In this document: positions 44,861-55,247 of the stretch, piece after piece | Position numbering within the stretch: position 1 is the stretch's first letter | Layout: each line of letters starts with the position of its first letter | Assembly (NCBI GenBank): GCA_017305715.1 | Contig: JAFKKG010000025.1 | Location: 90,392 to 154,391, forward strand | DNA from: Hyphomicrobiales bacterium | GTDB lineage: Bacteria; Pseudomonadota; Alphaproteobacteria; Rhizobiales; Xanthobacteraceae | Length of the DNA stretch: 64,000 nt | Direction of reading: 5' to 3' | Notes under the pieces: generated by a model | Databases searched by the model: none | Told to the model about the DNA's origin: nothing | What the model saw: the letters and a program-made list of their open reading frames with translations, nothing else | Program-made: the position numbers and the translations under genes

Positions 44861-44931
44861 CGTGTCTGTCTTTCGCGGCGGGTTATGGCTTCGGCTAATT
44901 TACCTGCCCGATCCTGGCGAGCTTGTGTCTG

Positions 44932-49059: not shown

Positions 49060-49165
49060 GTCGTCCCGGCGAAGGCCCGGACCCATAACCACCGGCGGTG
49101 ATTGCCTGGCTCGCTGATCGTTGTCTTCTTTTTCCAGCAACGACCGGCTCAAGGCCGGGACGACA
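49060..49165. repeat. Dispersed inverted repeat (TGTCGTCCCGGC family)
   Basis: TGTCGTCCCGGC (49060-49071) and GCCGGGACGACA (49154-49165) are exact 12-nt complements at the ends of a 106-bp element. The interior includes GGACCCATAACCACCG, a sequence often seen in such Bradyrhizobium intergenic repeats. Confidence 0.75.
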
Positions 49166-49267
49166 ACGGCGCGCTTCACCTACCTGAACGCGCAGTTCAG
49201 CGAACATTCATCCCGGCGCGCTGAAACTCTTCCTCTCAAATCAACCGATCGCAGAGGAGGAGATGTC

Positions 49268-49591
49268 ATGGAACGCCGGCACTTTCTGAAACTCGCCTTT
49301 GGATTTGCGGCAGGCGGCGCAGCACTTGTCGCGAGCGCGCAGGCCGCGCCCCTGACGCCGCAGCCGCTGGTTCCGGATGGTCAACTGCCTGTTCAGGATG
49401 CCCATCCCGCGGTCACCACAGGTGATGAAGTCGATCGGCTCAAGCCGGAAGAAGTGCGCTGGGGCCGCCGTCGCTGGCGTCGCAGACATTGGGGCTGGCG
49501 TCGCCGCCGCCATTGGGGTTGGCGCCGCAGGCGTTGGGGCTGGCGTCGCCGCTGGCACCGTCGCCGCTTCTGGCGCCGCCGCCGCTGGTGA
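49268..49591 (+). CDS. Tat-signal mini-protein with Trp/Arg-rich C-terminal tail
   Basis: 107 residues from ATG at 49268, with GAGGAG 7 nt upstream. The N-terminus ERRHFLKLAFG fits the twin-arginine consensus (RRxFLK), followed by a hydrophobic stretch and cleavage near AQA. A Pro-rich linker (about 28-63) leads to a 44-residue tail (64-107) made of 25 Arg, 11 Trp, 4 Gly, 3 His and 1 Phe, with HWGWRRRR repeated. Such composition is typical of membrane-active cationic peptides. Export by Tat is an inference. The role, whether structural, RNA- or heme-binding, or antimicrobial, is unknown. Confidence 0.8.
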   Translation: MERRHFLKLAFGFAAGGAALVASAQAAPLTPQPLVPDGQLPVQDAHPAVTTGDEVDRLKPEEVRWGRRRWRRRHWGWRRRRHWGWRRRRWGWRRRWHRRRFWRRRRW

Positions 49592-49598
49592 GGCGAGG

Positions 49599-49621
49599 GG
49601 GGATTGCCTTTCGCAATCCCC
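49599..49621 (+). terminator. Hairpin downstream of the Trp/Arg-rich gene
   Basis: GGGGATTGC and GCAATCCCC form a perfect 9-bp stem with a CTTTC loop, 7 nt after the stop codon. Only a short pyrimidine run follows (GCTTCTCC), so it is a weak or factor-aided terminator candidate. Confidence 0.55.
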
Positions 49622-49686
49622 GCTTCTCCAATGGCCTTGATGCCAAACCGTGCCGACGTCGTTTCGAATACTGGTAGATCCCTGAT

Positions 49687-50715
49687 TCAGGGAACCCAGT
49701 GGACCATGGGTAGCCCTGGAACCGGAGAGCGGAAATACGGGATGCGTGTGCCGAGCAGGCTGCCCAAATACACGGTTTGCAAATCCGGCCCGCCGAAAGT
49801 GACGCTGGCCATCCACGGCGCGATCTGCCCTTGCGTGCGCTGCATGTCCTCGGCGCGAACCGTACCCTCGTGCATGCGCTTCATAAGATTGGCGCTCGCT
49901 TCGGGATCTCCGTCATCCAGCAGCAGGAGCTTGTCGCCCTGCGGCGTCAGCGCAATCAACTGGTCGACCTGGATGAGTGTGCACCAGAGATTCCCGTATG
50001 CATCGAAGGCAATGCCGTCGGGATTGCCGCCCAGGTGCGACGGACCGAATGTCTCACGATCGGTCAACCGCACGCCAGAGCGGTCTGACTCGTCCAGCCG
50101 CATGCGGGTGATATGCGGGCCGGTGGTCTCGACGATGTAAAGCCATTCCTCCTTTTCATCCAACCGGACCTCATTTGTGAAATAGAAATTGTCCGCGACC
50201 ACCCGCAGACCTCCCTCGTCGACAACGGCTACATAACCGTCACGAACACGGCTGCTCACGGCGGCCGTCCAGGGGTTCACGCGGGTCGAGACCGTCAGCC
50301 AGATGCGGTTGCGCGAGTCGCGCAGCACGAAATTCACTTTGCCGATCGGCATGCCGTCGATCCGGTCATATAGCGTGCGTGTACGGCCGTCCCTGGTCAT
50401 GACCTCCAGCAGGTCCGTGCCGAAATTCGAGATCAGAATGTCGCCGTTGGCGGCGAAGGCCAGGCCATTCGGCAAGGTGCCTTGCGTGAAGCTGGTCCCG
50501 ACGTCGTTCTTGTCCGCGGCCAGGTCCATGCGCTGGCCGATGAACTGCTGCGAGCCATCGGGCGCAATTCGCATGACGCCGCCACGGCCGTCCGCCGACC
50601 ACAGGGTGCCGTCGCGCTCGGCCAGGATGCACTCGGGCCGCTGCAGGTCCGTGCCGATATATCGGATGGCGGCGCGGTCCACCGAGAAGCCGGTGAGGGG
50701 GTTGAGGTCGGTCAT
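49687..50715 (-). CDS. SMP-30/gluconolactonase-family protein
   Basis: 342 residues. Six-bladed propeller signatures are visible: LQRPECILAERDGTLWSADGRGG (metal Glu), LPNGLAFAANGDILISNFGTD, WLTVSTRV, NFYFTNEVRLDEKEEWLYIVET (metal Asn/Asp region) and GGNPDGIAFDAYGNLW (metal Asp). The family hydrolyses lactones with a divalent metal. Its start overlaps the hydrolase stop by 4 nt (ATGA, 50712-50715), so it is the last gene of a tctC-hydrolase-lactonase operon. The physiological lactone is unknown. Confidence 0.85.
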   Translation of the reverse strand: MTDLNPLTGFSVDRAAIRYIGTDLQRPECILAERDGTLWSADGRGGVMRIAPDGSQQFIGQRMDLAADKNDVGTSFTQGTLPNGLAFAANGDILISNFGTDLLEVMTRDGRTRTLYDRIDGMPIGKVNFVLRDSRNRIWLTVSTRVNPWTAAVSSRVRDGYVAVVDEGGLRVVADNFYFTNEVRLDEKEEWLYIVETTGPHITRMRLDESDRSGVRLTDRETFGPSHLGGNPDGIAFDAYGNLWCTLIQVDQLIALTPQGDKLLLLDDGDPEASANLMKRMHEGTVRAEDMQRTQGQIAPWMASVTFGGPDLQTVYLGSLLGTRIPYFRSPVPGLPMVHWVP

Positions 50716-51902
50716 TCCTGCGATACTCCTTCGAGGCTGCGAGCGAGGCCAGGTCGGCTTGCGCCCAGCACGTCGACGATCCAGTCCGCCATGTAGTCGA
50801 CGCCAACCGTGGCATTGTCAATTTGACAATGCTCGCAGCCGCCTTCGTCTTCCGTAAAGATCTTGAGCTTCCGGTTGGGGCTATTCACGGCGCCGTCATA
50901 GGTGCGATGTGCGTGTTCGACCGGAATTTGCCGATCCTTCTCGCCATGAACCACCAGAAGGGGGCATGTGATCTTGTCGACCACACCCTCGAGCGTCATT
51001 CTCCTGGTCACCGCGAGTACGCCTTCCACTGTCTCCTGGCCGAATACCCATTTGACATGAGCGGCCCAGTCGGAAACCGACAAGGCCGAACGCGCGCCAC
51101 GCACGCGCTGCTGGGTTATCTCGCCGTAATCGAACAATGCTCCCCATGCGACGCAGCACGCAAATCGCTTCTCGAAGGCGGCCGCGCGGGGCGCGTAATA
51201 CCCGCCAAGGCTGAGGGCGATCATGCCGATCCGCCCGCGGTCGACGTCGGATCGGGTTTCCAGATAGTCCACGCAGGCCTTTGCGGGCTGCTCGGTTTCC
51301 GGCTCGCTCGTCATGTTCCGCAGTCGTAGCGCTTCGCCCACCCCGGGATGATCAACCAGCAGAACGGATATTCCGCGTTCGGCGAGCTGGCTGGCCACGC
51401 CGCGCATATGCAGCAGTTCTTTTGTGACATCGAGACCGTCGAAATGGACCATGCACGGCGCCGGACTGCTCACGCCTTTCGCCTTCACAAAGAGGGCAGG
51501 CATGCTTGCGCCGCGAAACGGCACCTCGACGAATTCGATGTTCTCCCCGGCCAGCTCGGTGCTCTTCCTGAAATAGGCCAGCGCCTGTTTGTATGTCTCC
51601 AGCCGTTCCGCGCCCGCGTCGGCATTACGTTCCGACATGAACGAATAAAGGCTTGCCCGCTGGTAGCGTCTGGCCGCACTGCGGTGATGACCGGCCGCCT
51701 CTTCGATTTGAGCATAACCTGCGACCCTGTTCGCAAGTGTCGCCCACGATGCAGACCATGCAGCATTGGCTTTTGCACCTTCCTTCTCGCGGGGCAGAAG
51801 CGGCCGGCACACGGTATCGATCTCCGACATCACGCCGCCGGCATTGATCGCCATCACCACAGCCAGGTTCCAGGCATAATTGGTCGGAAAATATTCGAAC
51901 AT
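50712..51902 (-). CDS. FrsA/DHPON-hydrolase-like alpha/beta hydrolase (operon copy)
   Basis: 396 residues. A helical N-terminal cap region (about 1-130) precedes an alpha/beta hydrolase core with CMVHFDGLDVTKE (oxyanion), DHPGVGEALRLRN, the nucleophile elbow ALSLGGYYAPR, HGEKDRQIP (Asp) and a late His in the ENEGGCEHC-like segment (EDEGGCEHC). The layout resembles 2,6-dihydroxypseudooxynicotine hydrolase and FrsA, enzymes that cleave C-C or ester bonds. It lies between tctC and the lactonase. AGAGGA precedes the start. A second, more distant family member is at 54127-55179. Confidence 0.82.
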   Translation of the reverse strand: MFEYFPTNYAWNLAVVMAINAGGVMSEIDTVCRPLLPREKEGAKANAAWSASWATLANRVAGYAQIEEAAGHHRSAARRYQRASLYSFMSERNADAGAERLETYKQALAYFRKSTELAGENIEFVEVPFRGASMPALFVKAKGVSSPAPCMVHFDGLDVTKELLHMRGVASQLAERGISVLLVDHPGVGEALRLRNMTSEPETEQPAKACVDYLETRSDVDRGRIGMIALSLGGYYAPRAAAFEKRFACCVAWGALFDYGEITQQRVRGARSALSVSDWAAHVKWVFGQETVEGVLAVTRRMTLEGVVDKITCPLLVVHGEKDRQIPVEHAHRTYDGAVNSPNRKLKIFTEDEGGCEHCQIDNATVGVDYMADWIVDVLGASRPGLARSLEGVSQE

Positions 51903-51974
51903 GTCTTGCGTGTCCTCTGTTTGGCGGCAGGGGCCGAAGATCGGCGGCCGCTGGGATGATCGTAGAAAACGGCG

Positions 51975-52937
51975 TCAGTCGAGGGATATGCCAAGTGGCG
52001 CGAGCTGCTTCCTGTAGCGCTCGATCTCCGCTGCCACGTAGGCCGAGAGCTCCGCGGGCGTCGACGCTACCGGCGTCAGCCCCAATATCCGTGTCCTGGC
52101 GAGGTATTCCGGCCGCCGGATCGCGGCGGCGACATCCGCCTGCAGCTTCTGCGCCGTCTCCGCGGGCATGCCAGCGGGACCAAAAAGGCCGGTCCAGGCC
52201 GCAACGTCAGCCTCCGCGAATCCCAATTCGGCAAAGCTCGGTACGTCCGGAAGGTCACTGACCCGCGCGGTCCCGGAGATCGCAAGCGCCTTGGCCGTTC
52301 CTTCCTGCAGGTAGGGCCGGGCCAGGGTCGTTCCAAGGAAGATCGCATCGATGCGACCCGCGATCAGGTCTGTCATCGGAGAACCCTTGTAAGGTACGTG
52401 CAGCATATCGATGCCGGCTGCCCGCGCGAACAGCGCACCCACCAGATGCGTCGTATTGCCAATACCGGCTGAAGCGTAAGTGAGCGCACCCGGCTTGTCG
52501 CGCGCCGCCTGAATGAACTGTTGGACGGTCTTGTACGGAGATTCCGGTCCGACCAGCAAAAGGAATCCCGGAGATTCGCTGACCTGCGTAATGGCCGTGA
52601 AGTCACGCATCGAGTCATAGGGAAGTTTCTTGTAGAGCACCGCGTTGGTCGTGTGTCCGCCCGTCGTGAGAAGCAGTACCGATCCGTCGGGTTTGGCGCG
52701 CGCAACTTCGCTTGTTCCGATGATGCCGCCTGCTCCGGGCTTGTTGTCGACAATATACGTGCGGCCGGTGACGAGCCGCAGACTCTCGACCAGCGCGCGC
52801 GTCGGAACATCCAATGGACTGCCGGCAGCAAACGGTACGACGATCCGAACCAGATCGCGCTGGGCTTCAGCCGGCGTCGAGACGAGCGCCGAGACCAAGG
52901 CGGCTGCCGCGAACAGAAAACCCGGGATATTTCGCAT
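51975..52937 (-). CDS. Bug-family (TctC-like) periplasmic substrate-binding protein
   Basis: 320 residues with a signal peptide (to about AEA-Q). Bug signatures are seen: IVVPFAAGSPLDVPTRAL, YIVDNKPGAGGIIGTSEVARAKPDGSVLLL, TYASAGIGNTTHLVGALFA, HVPYKGSPMTDLIAGRIDAIF. Such proteins bind carboxylates or aromatic acids, and many are orphans without TctAB membrane partners, as here. It opens the minus-strand operon with the hydrolase and the lactonase. A 17-nt motif shared with another promoter lies 84 nt upstream. Confidence 0.9.
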   Translation of the reverse strand: MRNIPGFLFAAAALVSALVSTPAEAQRDLVRIVVPFAAGSPLDVPTRALVESLRLVTGRTYIVDNKPGAGGIIGTSEVARAKPDGSVLLLTTGGHTTNAVLYKKLPYDSMRDFTAITQVSESPGFLLLVGPESPYKTVQQFIQAARDKPGALTYASAGIGNTTHLVGALFARAAGIDMLHVPYKGSPMTDLIAGRIDAIFLGTTLARPYLQEGTAKALAISGTARVSDLPDVPSFAELGFAEADVAAWTGLFGPAGMPAETAQKLQADVAAAIRRPEYLARTRILGLTPVASTPAELSAYVAAEIERYRKQLAPLGISLD

Positions 52938-53021
52938 GACAAGCCGTCCTCCCCGATCGCAGGTCGCCTGGAACGTTGCGCCGCGTTGGAGACAGGATGC
53001 TCATCTATCGAGACATATTAA

Positions 53022-53038
53022 AAATAGATATTGGTGAT
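53022..53038 (-). promoter_or_regulatory. Candidate LysR operator upstream of the tctC operon
   Basis: AAATAGATATTGGTGAT on the plus strand, i.e. ATCACCAATATCTATTT read towards tctC. The identical 17-mer lies in the LysR/hydrolase promoter region at 54045-54061, in the same orientation relative to its downstream hydrolase gene. It contains T-N11-A, the LysR-box pattern. Confidence 0.65.
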
Positions 53039-53078
53039 GGCTTGGATAGTATTCGGCGATATCTGAATTCCCGATGCT

Positions 53079-54008
53079 TCAAGCTCGCTCGGGAATCGGC
53101 AACGCCCGCAGCATATCGGGCCGGGAAGCGCACAATTGCTGGACTTCCTGATTGATCATTTCCGTCAGGGCGCGGGCCGCCTGGGTCAATGGCCGGTCCC
53201 GGTGATGAAAGAGGCCTCGAGAAATGGAAAGGCCGTTGAGCGGGGCGCCGGTGAATTTTGGTGAAGCAAGTTCTCGATCGATCGGCGACGGCGGCGTTAC
53301 GAGGAACCCCACGCCGGCGTAGAGCGCCGCCCTGGCAGCCGTGAAGGAGTCGGCCTCGGCGATGACCCGAAGACGGAAGTCGGATTTGGCTTGATGCCGC
53401 TCGAGCAAGGTTCGCATGAAGCTTCCGATAACGAGCGGAAGGTCATTCAAGGCTTTCGGCTCAAGCCGCCGCCGCTTGCGGAACGGCCAAGCCTCCGATC
53501 TCCCTATCAGCCACATCGTTTCTTCGAATAGCGGTTTAAAAACAAGATCGGGATGCTGGGCCTCGCAGCTCATGATGCCGATATCGATCCGGCCGGCGAG
53601 CAACGCTTCGCGGACGGCTGGAGAATAATCCTCCTGCAGGTGCAACTCGACGCGCGGATACCGAGCGACGCTTTTGGTAAGCAGGCTGCCGATAAACAGG
53701 CTTCCGACTGAGGGCGGGAATCCAATTCCGACCTGGCCCGCCGGCACGCCTCGCTGCGAACGGACCTCGGTTTCGAGCTGCGTTGTCATTCGCAGGATCA
53801 ACTCGGCCCGTTCGAGAACGAGGAGGCCGGCCTCGGTCGGCTCGACTCCGCGCCTGTGGCGCATCAGGAGAGGTTCTCCGAGTCTCTCTTCGAGCAGTTG
53901 AATGCGCCGGGAGAGTGCCGGCTGAACCACGCCAAGCGAAACGGCTGCCTTGGAGATGCTCCGCTGCCGTGCGGTCTCGACGAAGTAACGCAGCGATACG
54001 AAATCCAT
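53079..54008 (-). CDS. LysR-family transcriptional regulator
   Basis: 309 residues from ATG at 54008 (MDFVSLRYFVETARQRS); the in-frame codons upstream cover the promoter region and are rejected. The N-terminal winged helix has SISKAAVSLGVVQPALSRRIQLLEERLGEPLL, the classic LysR helix-turn-helix. The effector domain (about 90-300) follows. It lies upstream of the tctC operon on the same strand and divergent from the second hydrolase gene. A shared 17-nt motif in both target promoters makes it the likely regulator of this module. The inducer is unknown. Confidence 0.9.
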   Translation of the reverse strand: MDFVSLRYFVETARQRSISKAAVSLGVVQPALSRRIQLLEERLGEPLLMRHRRGVEPTEAGLLVLERAELILRMTTQLETEVRSQRGVPAGQVGIGFPPSVGSLFIGSLLTKSVARYPRVELHLQEDYSPAVREALLAGRIDIGIMSCEAQHPDLVFKPLFEETMWLIGRSEAWPFRKRRRLEPKALNDLPLVIGSFMRTLLERHQAKSDFRLRVIAEADSFTAARAALYAGVGFLVTPPSPIDRELASPKFTGAPLNGLSISRGLFHHRDRPLTQAARALTEMINQEVQQLCASRPDMLRALPIPERA

Positions 54009-54044
54009 CAGGCGCTCCAGATATGCCGGTGTAGCATGTGTAAT

Positions 54045-54061
54045 ATCACCAATATCTATTT
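54045..54061 (+). promoter_or_regulatory. Candidate LysR operator between lysR and the second hydrolase
   Basis: ATCACCAATATCTATTT, 66-82 nt upstream of the hydrolase ATG and 37-53 nt upstream of the lysR start on the other strand. It is identical (as complement) to 53022-53038. It sits in an AT-rich patch with a preceding AATATC repeat (54042-54047) and a downstream GATATC. Confidence 0.65.
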
Positions 54062-54126
54062 CCAAGATATCAAAAATGCTGCGAATGGTCCCGTGCTCCA
54101 GCAAGGAGCGGGGAGCCGAGCAAAAC

Positions 54127-55179
54127 ATGAGCTACGAGTGGCCGATTGATCCCGCCGAGTTTTTCACTGAGCGTCGTCCGCAGATGCTGCGAATGGGCCT
54201 GTCGGAGGCTGACGTGAATAGCGTTCAGCACGCGGTGAAAGAGATGTGGAAGGATTCACCTGGCGGGTGGGTTTACGAATGGTCGGAGCTGGCCCGCAAG
54301 TATGCCGAGGCCGGACGAAGCGACATGGCGGCCCAAGCCTATGGATGGGCCAAGTTTCCGACGCTGGCCAACGCGGCAATGCGCACCGCGCTGGCCAATC
54401 AATTGGAGCAATATTTACGCGCTGCCGCAGACTTTCCCGTGCGCTTCGAACGTCGCGTGCTCGATCTTCCGCACCAGGGCGAAAGCACGCCCGTTCCCGT
54501 TCACATCTTTGCCGCCGAAGGGCTGGCGGCGGATGCGCCTGCGATCGTCGCGAGCGGAGGCGTCGATAGTTGGAAAATGGACCTTCACGGTATCTTTGTC
54601 GCTCTGGCGACGACCAAAATCGCGCGCATCGTGACTTTCGATATCGCGGGCACGGGGGAATCCCGCGTTCCCATGACCCCTGCCGGCGGGGCGCAGATCG
54701 TTGACGGTCTTGTCGCGGAAGCGCGCAGGATGGGGGCGCGAAAGGTCGCCCATCTCGGCATTTCGATGGGCGGCTATTATTCGGCGAGATCCGGCCTTGC
54801 CGGAAAGGTCGATGCTGCCATCGTCCTTGGAGGACCTGTGGAGTCAGCCTTCACGTCGGATCGCCGTTACCAGTTTGGGATGTACGATATCGTGGGCAAC
54901 GCGTTGGGCTTCAACCAAAGGCCCGAACCGGCCGAGATCCAAACCCGCCGCAGCGAATTTTCGCTCCGTCCATTGCTCGATCAGGATCTCAATGCGCCCA
55001 TGCTGGTGATCAATGGCGCCGACGATGTGCATATTCCGCAACAGGATACGCTGGTGTTCCAGGGACGCCGCGACACCGACGTTCACCTGCTCCCGGACAC
55101 GGGCCACTGCGCCGTAACGAAGCTTCCGGAGGCGATGATGATCATGATGGGCTGGCTGACAGAGAAGCTCAAGGTCTGA
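54127..55179 (+). CDS. FrsA/DHPON-hydrolase-like alpha/beta hydrolase (divergent copy)
   Basis: 350 residues from ATG at 54127 (MSYEWPIDPAEFF), with GGGGAG about 12 nt upstream. A helical cap region (1-115) is followed by the hydrolase core: VASGGVDSWKMDLHG, FDIAGTGESRVPM, nucleophile elbow LGISMGGYYSARSG, INGADDVHIP (Asp) and PDTGHCAVTKLPE (His). The layout and the SxGGYY elbow relate it to the hydrolase at 50712-51902, although the two differ much in sequence. It is divergent from the LysR gene and ends at a strong terminator. Confidence 0.83.
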   Translation: MSYEWPIDPAEFFTERRPQMLRMGLSEADVNSVQHAVKEMWKDSPGGWVYEWSELARKYAEAGRSDMAAQAYGWAKFPTLANAAMRTALANQLEQYLRAAADFPVRFERRVLDLPHQGESTPVPVHIFAAEGLAADAPAIVASGGVDSWKMDLHGIFVALATTKIARIVTFDIAGTGESRVPMTPAGGAQIVDGLVAEARRMGARKVAHLGISMGGYYSARSGLAGKVDAAIVLGGPVESAFTSDRRYQFGMYDIVGNALGFNQRPEPAEIQTRRSEFSLRPLLDQDLNAPMLVINGADDVHIPQQDTLVFQGRRDTDVHLLPDTGHCAVTKLPEAMMIMMGWLTEKLKV

Positions 55180-55219
55180 CCGCGGCTGCCGAACAAGCCG
55201 CCATGTTCGGGGCCCAAAT

Positions 55220-55247
55220 AAAAAGCCCCGCCGGAGCGGGGCTTTTT
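55220..55247. terminator. Bidirectional intrinsic terminator
   Basis: AAAAAGCCCCGC and GCGGGGCTTTTT form a 12-bp perfect stem with a CGGA loop; the A-run and T-run make it work on both strands. It separates the plus-strand hydrolase from the convergent mini-protein gene. Confidence 0.93.

Follow-up and report, generated by a model that had tools for sequence, protein, structure and literature searches.

Closest described systems

Transcription factors of the LysR family are established to act through paired sites, one for recognition and one for activation, as laid out in PMC11739112. Among serine hydrolases, the C–C trimming group typified by Ayg1p, Wdyg1p, AntI and the DHPON hydrolase is marked by a GLDx specificity loop with an acid, according to PMC11165489. 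DHPON-like hydrolases also figure in the fde/ifc clusters for flavonoid A-ring degradation (Herbaspirillum, Variovorax): PMC11069340 describes an isoflavone cluster of Variovorax with such a hydrolase, an FAD monooxygenase, a glyoxalase-type dioxygenase and cupins, and reports that losing the hydrolase left daidzein degradation unaffected. Here we describe a five-gene module at positions 49,687–55,179 of a 64-kb window (the whole stretch analyzed) from the genome of a Hyphomicrobiales soil bacterium. It codes for a LysR-type regulator, a Bug/TctC periplasmic binding protein, two alpha/beta hydrolases (hereinafter HYD1 and HYD2) and an SMP-30/gluconolactonase-like protein (SGL), and it carries two copies of a 54-bp element that we propose to be the operator of the regulator. 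A literature search, with most subscription journals outside its reach, turned up no account of these five genes as a set.

The module shares with the paired-site LysR regulators the LysR domains, the divergent promoter, T-N11-A boxes and the presence of two boxes per site. It differs from them in that its 54-bp element is a putative operator defined from comparison alone, and in that the element recurs in full across lysR, ahead of another transcription unit.

A conserved 54-bp element before both transcription units

An earlier note on this DNA claimed a perfect 17-mer before tctC and before the divergent hydrolase gene. Indeed, ATCACCAATATCTATTT occurs with 0 mismatches at 53022–53038 on the minus strand and at 54045–54061 on the plus strand. 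The former lies 84 nt from tctC (ATG at 52937), as claimed, while the latter is 65 nt from HYD1 (ATG at 54127) rather than the claimed 66, and is 36 nt ahead of the conserved start codon of the LysR gene (54008). The 17-mer also holds the T-N11-A box attributed to it, which is invariant in all eight sites compared below. Its expected rarity is borne out by the whole genome (7,452,781 bases, 51 contigs), which has only these two exact copies and 11 further places, all at exactly 3 mismatches; the reversed 17-mer, searched as a control, gave 0 matches there. Within the window, no third place comes within 3 mismatches of the 17-mer, where shuffles lead one to expect 0.01. These counts, along with the fact that the blocks on either side of the 17-mer are conserved in their own right, make it exceedingly improbable that the match is due to chance or a neutral repeat, in favor of which nothing was found.

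The 17-mer is the core of a larger conserved element of 54 bp, whose full length the earlier note had missed. Eight sites anchored on the 17-mer, namely the two in the module and six before genes for LysR kin (one of these being a paralogue in the same genome), agree without gaps over 54 bp with 17 invariant columns. Within the element all eight sites have two invariant T-N11-A pairs 22 bp apart; the second box, likewise overlooked before, lies 22 bp upstream of the 17-mer box in both module copies. The first copy (54018–54071, plus strand) contains the 17-mer at 54045–54061; 9 nt separate it from the start of LysR (54008) and 55 nt from that of HYD1 (54127). Its proximity to both genes suggests that it serves the divergent promoter. 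The second copy (53012–53065, minus strand), with the 17-mer at 53022–53038, is situated between the end of lysR (53079) and tctC (52937), its lower edge being 74 nt before the latter. A simple scan for sigma-70-like promoters found none.

A model built from the six outside sites only scores 53.5 on the tctC side and 44.1 on the HYD1 side, the next best score in the window being −3.4. Even with the 17-mer set aside, the tctC copy comes out top of 127,948 positions on the left block alone, with the HYD1 copy among the best 5, while the right block alone places the copies within the best 2 and 13 of 127,982 positions. As the outside-site model finds just these two sites in the window, the comparison indicates that LysR/HYD1 and tctC–HYD2–SGL are very probably one regulon of two transcription units.

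Compared with each other, the two copies are identical at 17/17 positions of the core but differ at 14/27 positions of the left block and 4/10 of the right block. A recent duplication of the whole operator is unsupported, given these differences. Half-site swapping by inversion at the 17-mer was also considered and dropped, the left block being conserved in both copies.

A further alternative is that the two copies constitute an inverted repeat (17 nt, or 27 nt if imperfect) bounding an invertible or mobile segment around lysR and are not operators. The arms, 53012–53038 and 54045–54071, do flank lysR and are 85% identical over 27 nt. However, at each of the six outside LysR genes the element is found on the promoter side, with little variation in its distance, the paralogue shows a single place in pattern searches of its own genome, conservation extends over 54 bp without any change in internal spacing, and the open frames of the segment include no recombinase gene. 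Hence, we consider an invertible segment very unlikely. The putative LysR operator that the earlier note proposed for both units thus stands as a conserved element, found also before the genes of LysR kin.

The element at related LysR genes

The six LysR kin that have the same element before their genes are 55–66% identical to the module LysR. A search of the genus yielded the paralogue (59%, contig 15) and a second gene (G101, 66%); searches of the family added G277, G310 and G236, and then G782 (55%). No plasmid copy of the LysR was recovered at E ≤ 1e-60. At the first five of these genes the best match to the 17-mer has 1 to 5 mismatches and lies 33–46 nt from the LysR start, and shuffles of the same regions reached an equal match at rates of 0 to 0.011 of 2000. 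Leave-one-out models recovered the correct place in 7/7 regions; of 800 random 180-nt stretches, drawn from loci that contain true sites, between 1 and 10 scored as high. G782, found after the model was built, has its best site (26.8 bits) 38 nt from the LysR start, with the next best in 14 kb at 1.9; 5/800 random stretches reached 26.8, the source loci again containing true sites.

In the module's own genome the same three places come up with an extended pattern, allowing 3 mismatches, and with the invariant pattern of 17 bases, allowing 1: the two module copies and the promoter of the paralogous LysR. Across 195 genus genomes the invariant pattern is found at 13 places in 11 genomes; nine of these places lie beyond the three of the own genome and that of G101. 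In four of the nine, another LysR-type gene begins at the site (recognized by BLAST at 24% in two cases and by eye in two), and a fifth has a nearly identical site. In all, the pattern reveals a related element in five other genus genomes (L120, L122, L124, L125 and L127), four of which have it where a different LysR-type gene begins.

Next to the LysR kin we observe tctC in 5/6 cases (none was found at G310) and a gene for a long hydrolase, which matches Pfam S15 plus PepX_C in the two loci tested and is similar at its start in the others. These loci share with the module the LysR clade, the operator and, in 5/6, a divergent tctC, but differ in their hydrolase family and in having a single operator. 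At the paralogue (59%; L075, contig 15, 36000–54000), the site is at contig positions 44883–44909 and the LysR gene, with the same operator, is divergent from tctC and a gene for a 568-aa S15/PepX_C hydrolase. Cross-talk between this circuit and the module is possible.

Genes of the module

The gene types named in the earlier note hold up, with Pfam matches to the SGL, alpha/beta hydrolase, TctC, LysR and FrsA-like hydrolase families. The regulator (53079–54008, minus strand, 309 aa) matches HTH_1 and LysR_substrate at 73.6 and 119.7 bits, above the cut-offs. Its start at 54008 was set by alignment, as kin align from residue 1 or 2 and a 349-aa reading would enter the operator. The gene tctC (51975–52937, minus strand, 320 aa; Pfam TctC, 210.1 bits) is followed on the same strand by HYD2 (50712–51902, 396 aa) and SGL (49687–50715, 342 aa; Pfam SGL, 64.5 bits vs a cut-off of 26.3). 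Given the 4-nt overlap of HYD2 and SGL and their position behind tctC in the same direction, the three genes, with tctC as the first, are probably one transcription unit. The nearest solved relative of the module's TctC is the terephthalate-binding TBP (8hka, E 3e-52). There are no TctA or TctB permease genes beside tctC in the module; eight TctA genes are found elsewhere in the genome, TctB not having been searched. In SGL, E28, N181 and D233 sit in fitting motifs and are candidates for the Glu, Asn and Asp metal ligands.

The predicted models of HYD1 (54127–55179, plus strand, 350 aa), an Ayg1/FrsA-fold alpha/beta hydrolase of actinobacterial type, and of the DHPON-hydrolase-like HYD2 both match C–C hydrolases of the Ayg1p/AntI/DHPON type over the full-length two-domain fold. 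The Ser-Asp-His triad (Ser213, Asp300 and His327 in HYD1; Ser231, Asp323 and His358 in HYD2) is invariant in 20/20 and 9/9 rows of the respective alignments. The specificity loop reads GLDV in HYD2 and GVDS in HYD1, with Leu changed to Val and the acid (Asp158 and Asp147, respectively) kept in both. While sharing the fold, the triad and the acid-bearing loop with the Ayg1p/Wdyg1p/AntI/DHPON group, the module enzymes are only 13–22% identical to its members in structure alignments, and the module pairs two branches of the group in a catabolic setting with TctC and SGL. Neither hydrolase attains the NCBIfam equivalog cut-off for FrsA proper (53.9 and 34.2 bits vs 477). At the level of homology, both may be classed as DHPON/FrsA-type hydrolases.

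A different view of these enzymes would keep the regulon as real but cast them as enzymes that free a carboxylic acid from an ester or amide, with neither C–C cleavage nor a lactone route. The top match of the HYD2 model is the SMU_737 peptidase, its Pfam matches also include Hydrolase_4 and Peptidase_S9, and the S15 plus PepX_C hydrolases beside tctC at LysR kin point in the same direction. Conversely, HYD1 and HYD2 keep the loop acid that C–C cleaving members use, which AbyA5 is without in the alignment, and relatives of SGL and HYD2 cluster with dioxygenase and FAH-type genes. We regard the ester/amide reading as somewhat doubtful.

Gene company of the SGL and hydrolase relatives

Thirteen plasmid records have an SGL match, nine of them at 51% or more; in 3/9 (Deinococcus, Azospirillum and Massilia) a HYD2 relative lies within 11 kb of the SGL relative. 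A HYD1 relative is found within 2 kb of an SGL relative in two more of the nine, both Pseudonocardia plasmids, one of which was inspected. In the remaining four (Aminobacter, Chelatococcus, Methylobacterium and K84) no such gene was seen in the annotated stretch, K84 having one 27 kb away. Within the genus, one genome (G175) has SGL (59%), ADH, cupin and HYD2 (52%) genes together.

The operon of the Pseudonocardia ant-symbiont plasmid pBCI1-2 (L097, 9049–12792) has the order HYD1-SDR-SGL-FAH-ADH, and appears to code for an uncharacterized pathway sharing two parts with the module. Its HYD1 (51%) and SGL (52%) likewise stand in one unit; it differs in having TetR in place of LysR, in being without TctC and HYD2, and in the additional SDR, FAH and ADH genes. 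In the Deinococcus aetherius plasmid (L114), SGL and HYD2 relatives stand beside genes for a GMC oxidoreductase, a sugar phosphate isomerase and a DUF6379 protein, which we take to be of the kind seen in C-glycoside cleavage; this company suggests a plant glycoside pathway.

More generally, clusters of HYD2 and SGL relatives contain varying sets of VOC, Rieske, FAD, cyclase, FAH, cupin or epimerase genes. Judging from gene names and PMC11069340, some of them resemble flavonoid-ring degradation clusters. The likeness to fde/ifc lies in the HYD2-type hydrolase, comparable to that of DHPON, and in the VOC, FAD, cupin and FAH genes of the relatives' clusters, likened by name and not by sequence. 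Unlike fde/ifc, the five genes of the module include no VOC dioxygenase, FAD monooxygenase or cupin.

Proposed function

We posit that the module forms a small island for catabolism, controlled by the LysR it encodes via the two 54-bp operators and probably serving the uptake and breakdown of an acid. The LysR would bind the 54-bp element through its two T-N11-A boxes, 22 bp apart, this role resting on comparative sequence and the binding and activation being presumed. From the copy in the divergent promoter it would control itself and HYD1, and from the second full copy tctC–HYD2–SGL. TctC might capture a carboxylated compound and pass it to a TctAB permease encoded elsewhere. Going by fold, residues and gene company, HYD1 and HYD2 would cleave a β-diketone or acyl-aromatic-type substrate at a C–C bond by serine retro-Claisen chemistry, with the SMP-30-like protein opening a lactone before or after this cleavage. 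The assignment of substrate and chemistry is a reasoned guess. With respect to the uptake-and-cleavage module of the earlier note, the shared LysR operator and, by homology, the two DHPON/FrsA-type hydrolases, the SMP-30-like protein and TctC/Bug are upheld, but not the synteny (see below).

For this LysR clade, which has no known effector, the module provides an operator sharply delimited to 54 bp and present at three places of a single genome; given this and the clear reporter constructs it affords, the inducer, and through it the substrate, could be screened for directly. It also brings an SMP-30-like protein together with two C–C trimming-type hydrolases under one regulon. Orphan enzymes from several phyla (HYD1 from Actinobacteria; HYD2 and SGL from Proteobacteria and Deinococcus) are thereby linked to a single pathway that can be tested. 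If true, a route for plant polyketide-type acids in rhizosphere bacteria would be of ecological interest; another ester-acid catabolic operon would be ordinary.

Origin and flanks of the segment

Junction alignments of four relatives and a flank search delimit an inserted segment of ~5.6 kb (49595–55220, approximate extent). The relatives with both flanks have 615 bp (G012), 228 bp (G031), 53 bp (G019) and 23 bp (G023) in its place, the module being absent at 4/4 of the aligned junctions. In 194 other genus genomes HYD1 is matched only weakly, at nine places (24–34%), and in 298 other genomes of the phylum there is no match at E ≤ 1e-25. When species genomes were scanned, 25 loci (L009–L033) matched at 44–66%, all titled Actinobacteria; the nearest plasmid matches are in Streptomyces, Rhodococcus and Pseudonocardia. 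In an unrooted tree HYD1 falls among rows that are otherwise all actinobacterial, and the direction of transfer is inferred from the distribution. A TetR gene is divergent to HYD1 in 20/25 of the actinobacterial loci. Relatives of SGL are present in 2/189 other genus genomes, and those of HYD2 (E ≤ 1e-60) in 9/184.

Hence, the synteny of the five genes in relatives, which the earlier note had proposed as a check, is broken. We read this as a sign that the genes were put together recently or locally and not as evidence against the operator: the regulon is not refuted by the lost synteny, since LysR kin retain the operator even where the structural genes are different. The gene set is a mosaic of three sources: a LysR of a family-wide clade with its operator, elsewhere neighbored by tctC, by a gene for an S15/PepX_C hydrolase or by both; a hydrolase of actinobacterial type; and the pair of SGL and HYD2, with kin in aromatic catabolism clusters. 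More speculatively, and with rather low confidence, one may envisage a regulatory capture, wherein a native LysR–tctC circuit (S15-linked in kin) gained a second operator and took over the actinobacterial-type retro-Claisen hydrolase and SGL/HYD2. This would yield a compact, self-regulated route for a plant-derived keto-acid, flavonoid-like or acylphloroglucinol-like, with two Ayg1/DHPON-type hydrolases and a lactonase in series.

There is no compositional sign of import, the module having a GC content of 61.2% vs 62.8% for the window; any import would thus not be recent or would be from a similar donor. No target-site repeats or recombinase were seen at the junctions, where only repeats and open frames were inspected. 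The ends of the segment are approximate because they lie in a repeat-rich gene. Directly to the left of the insertion is an open frame (49121–49591) ending in a long Trp/Arg/Gly/His repeat. At the right end, a GC-rich hairpin flanked by A and T runs (55220–55247) is kept in G019 and G023, and is likely a two-way terminator.
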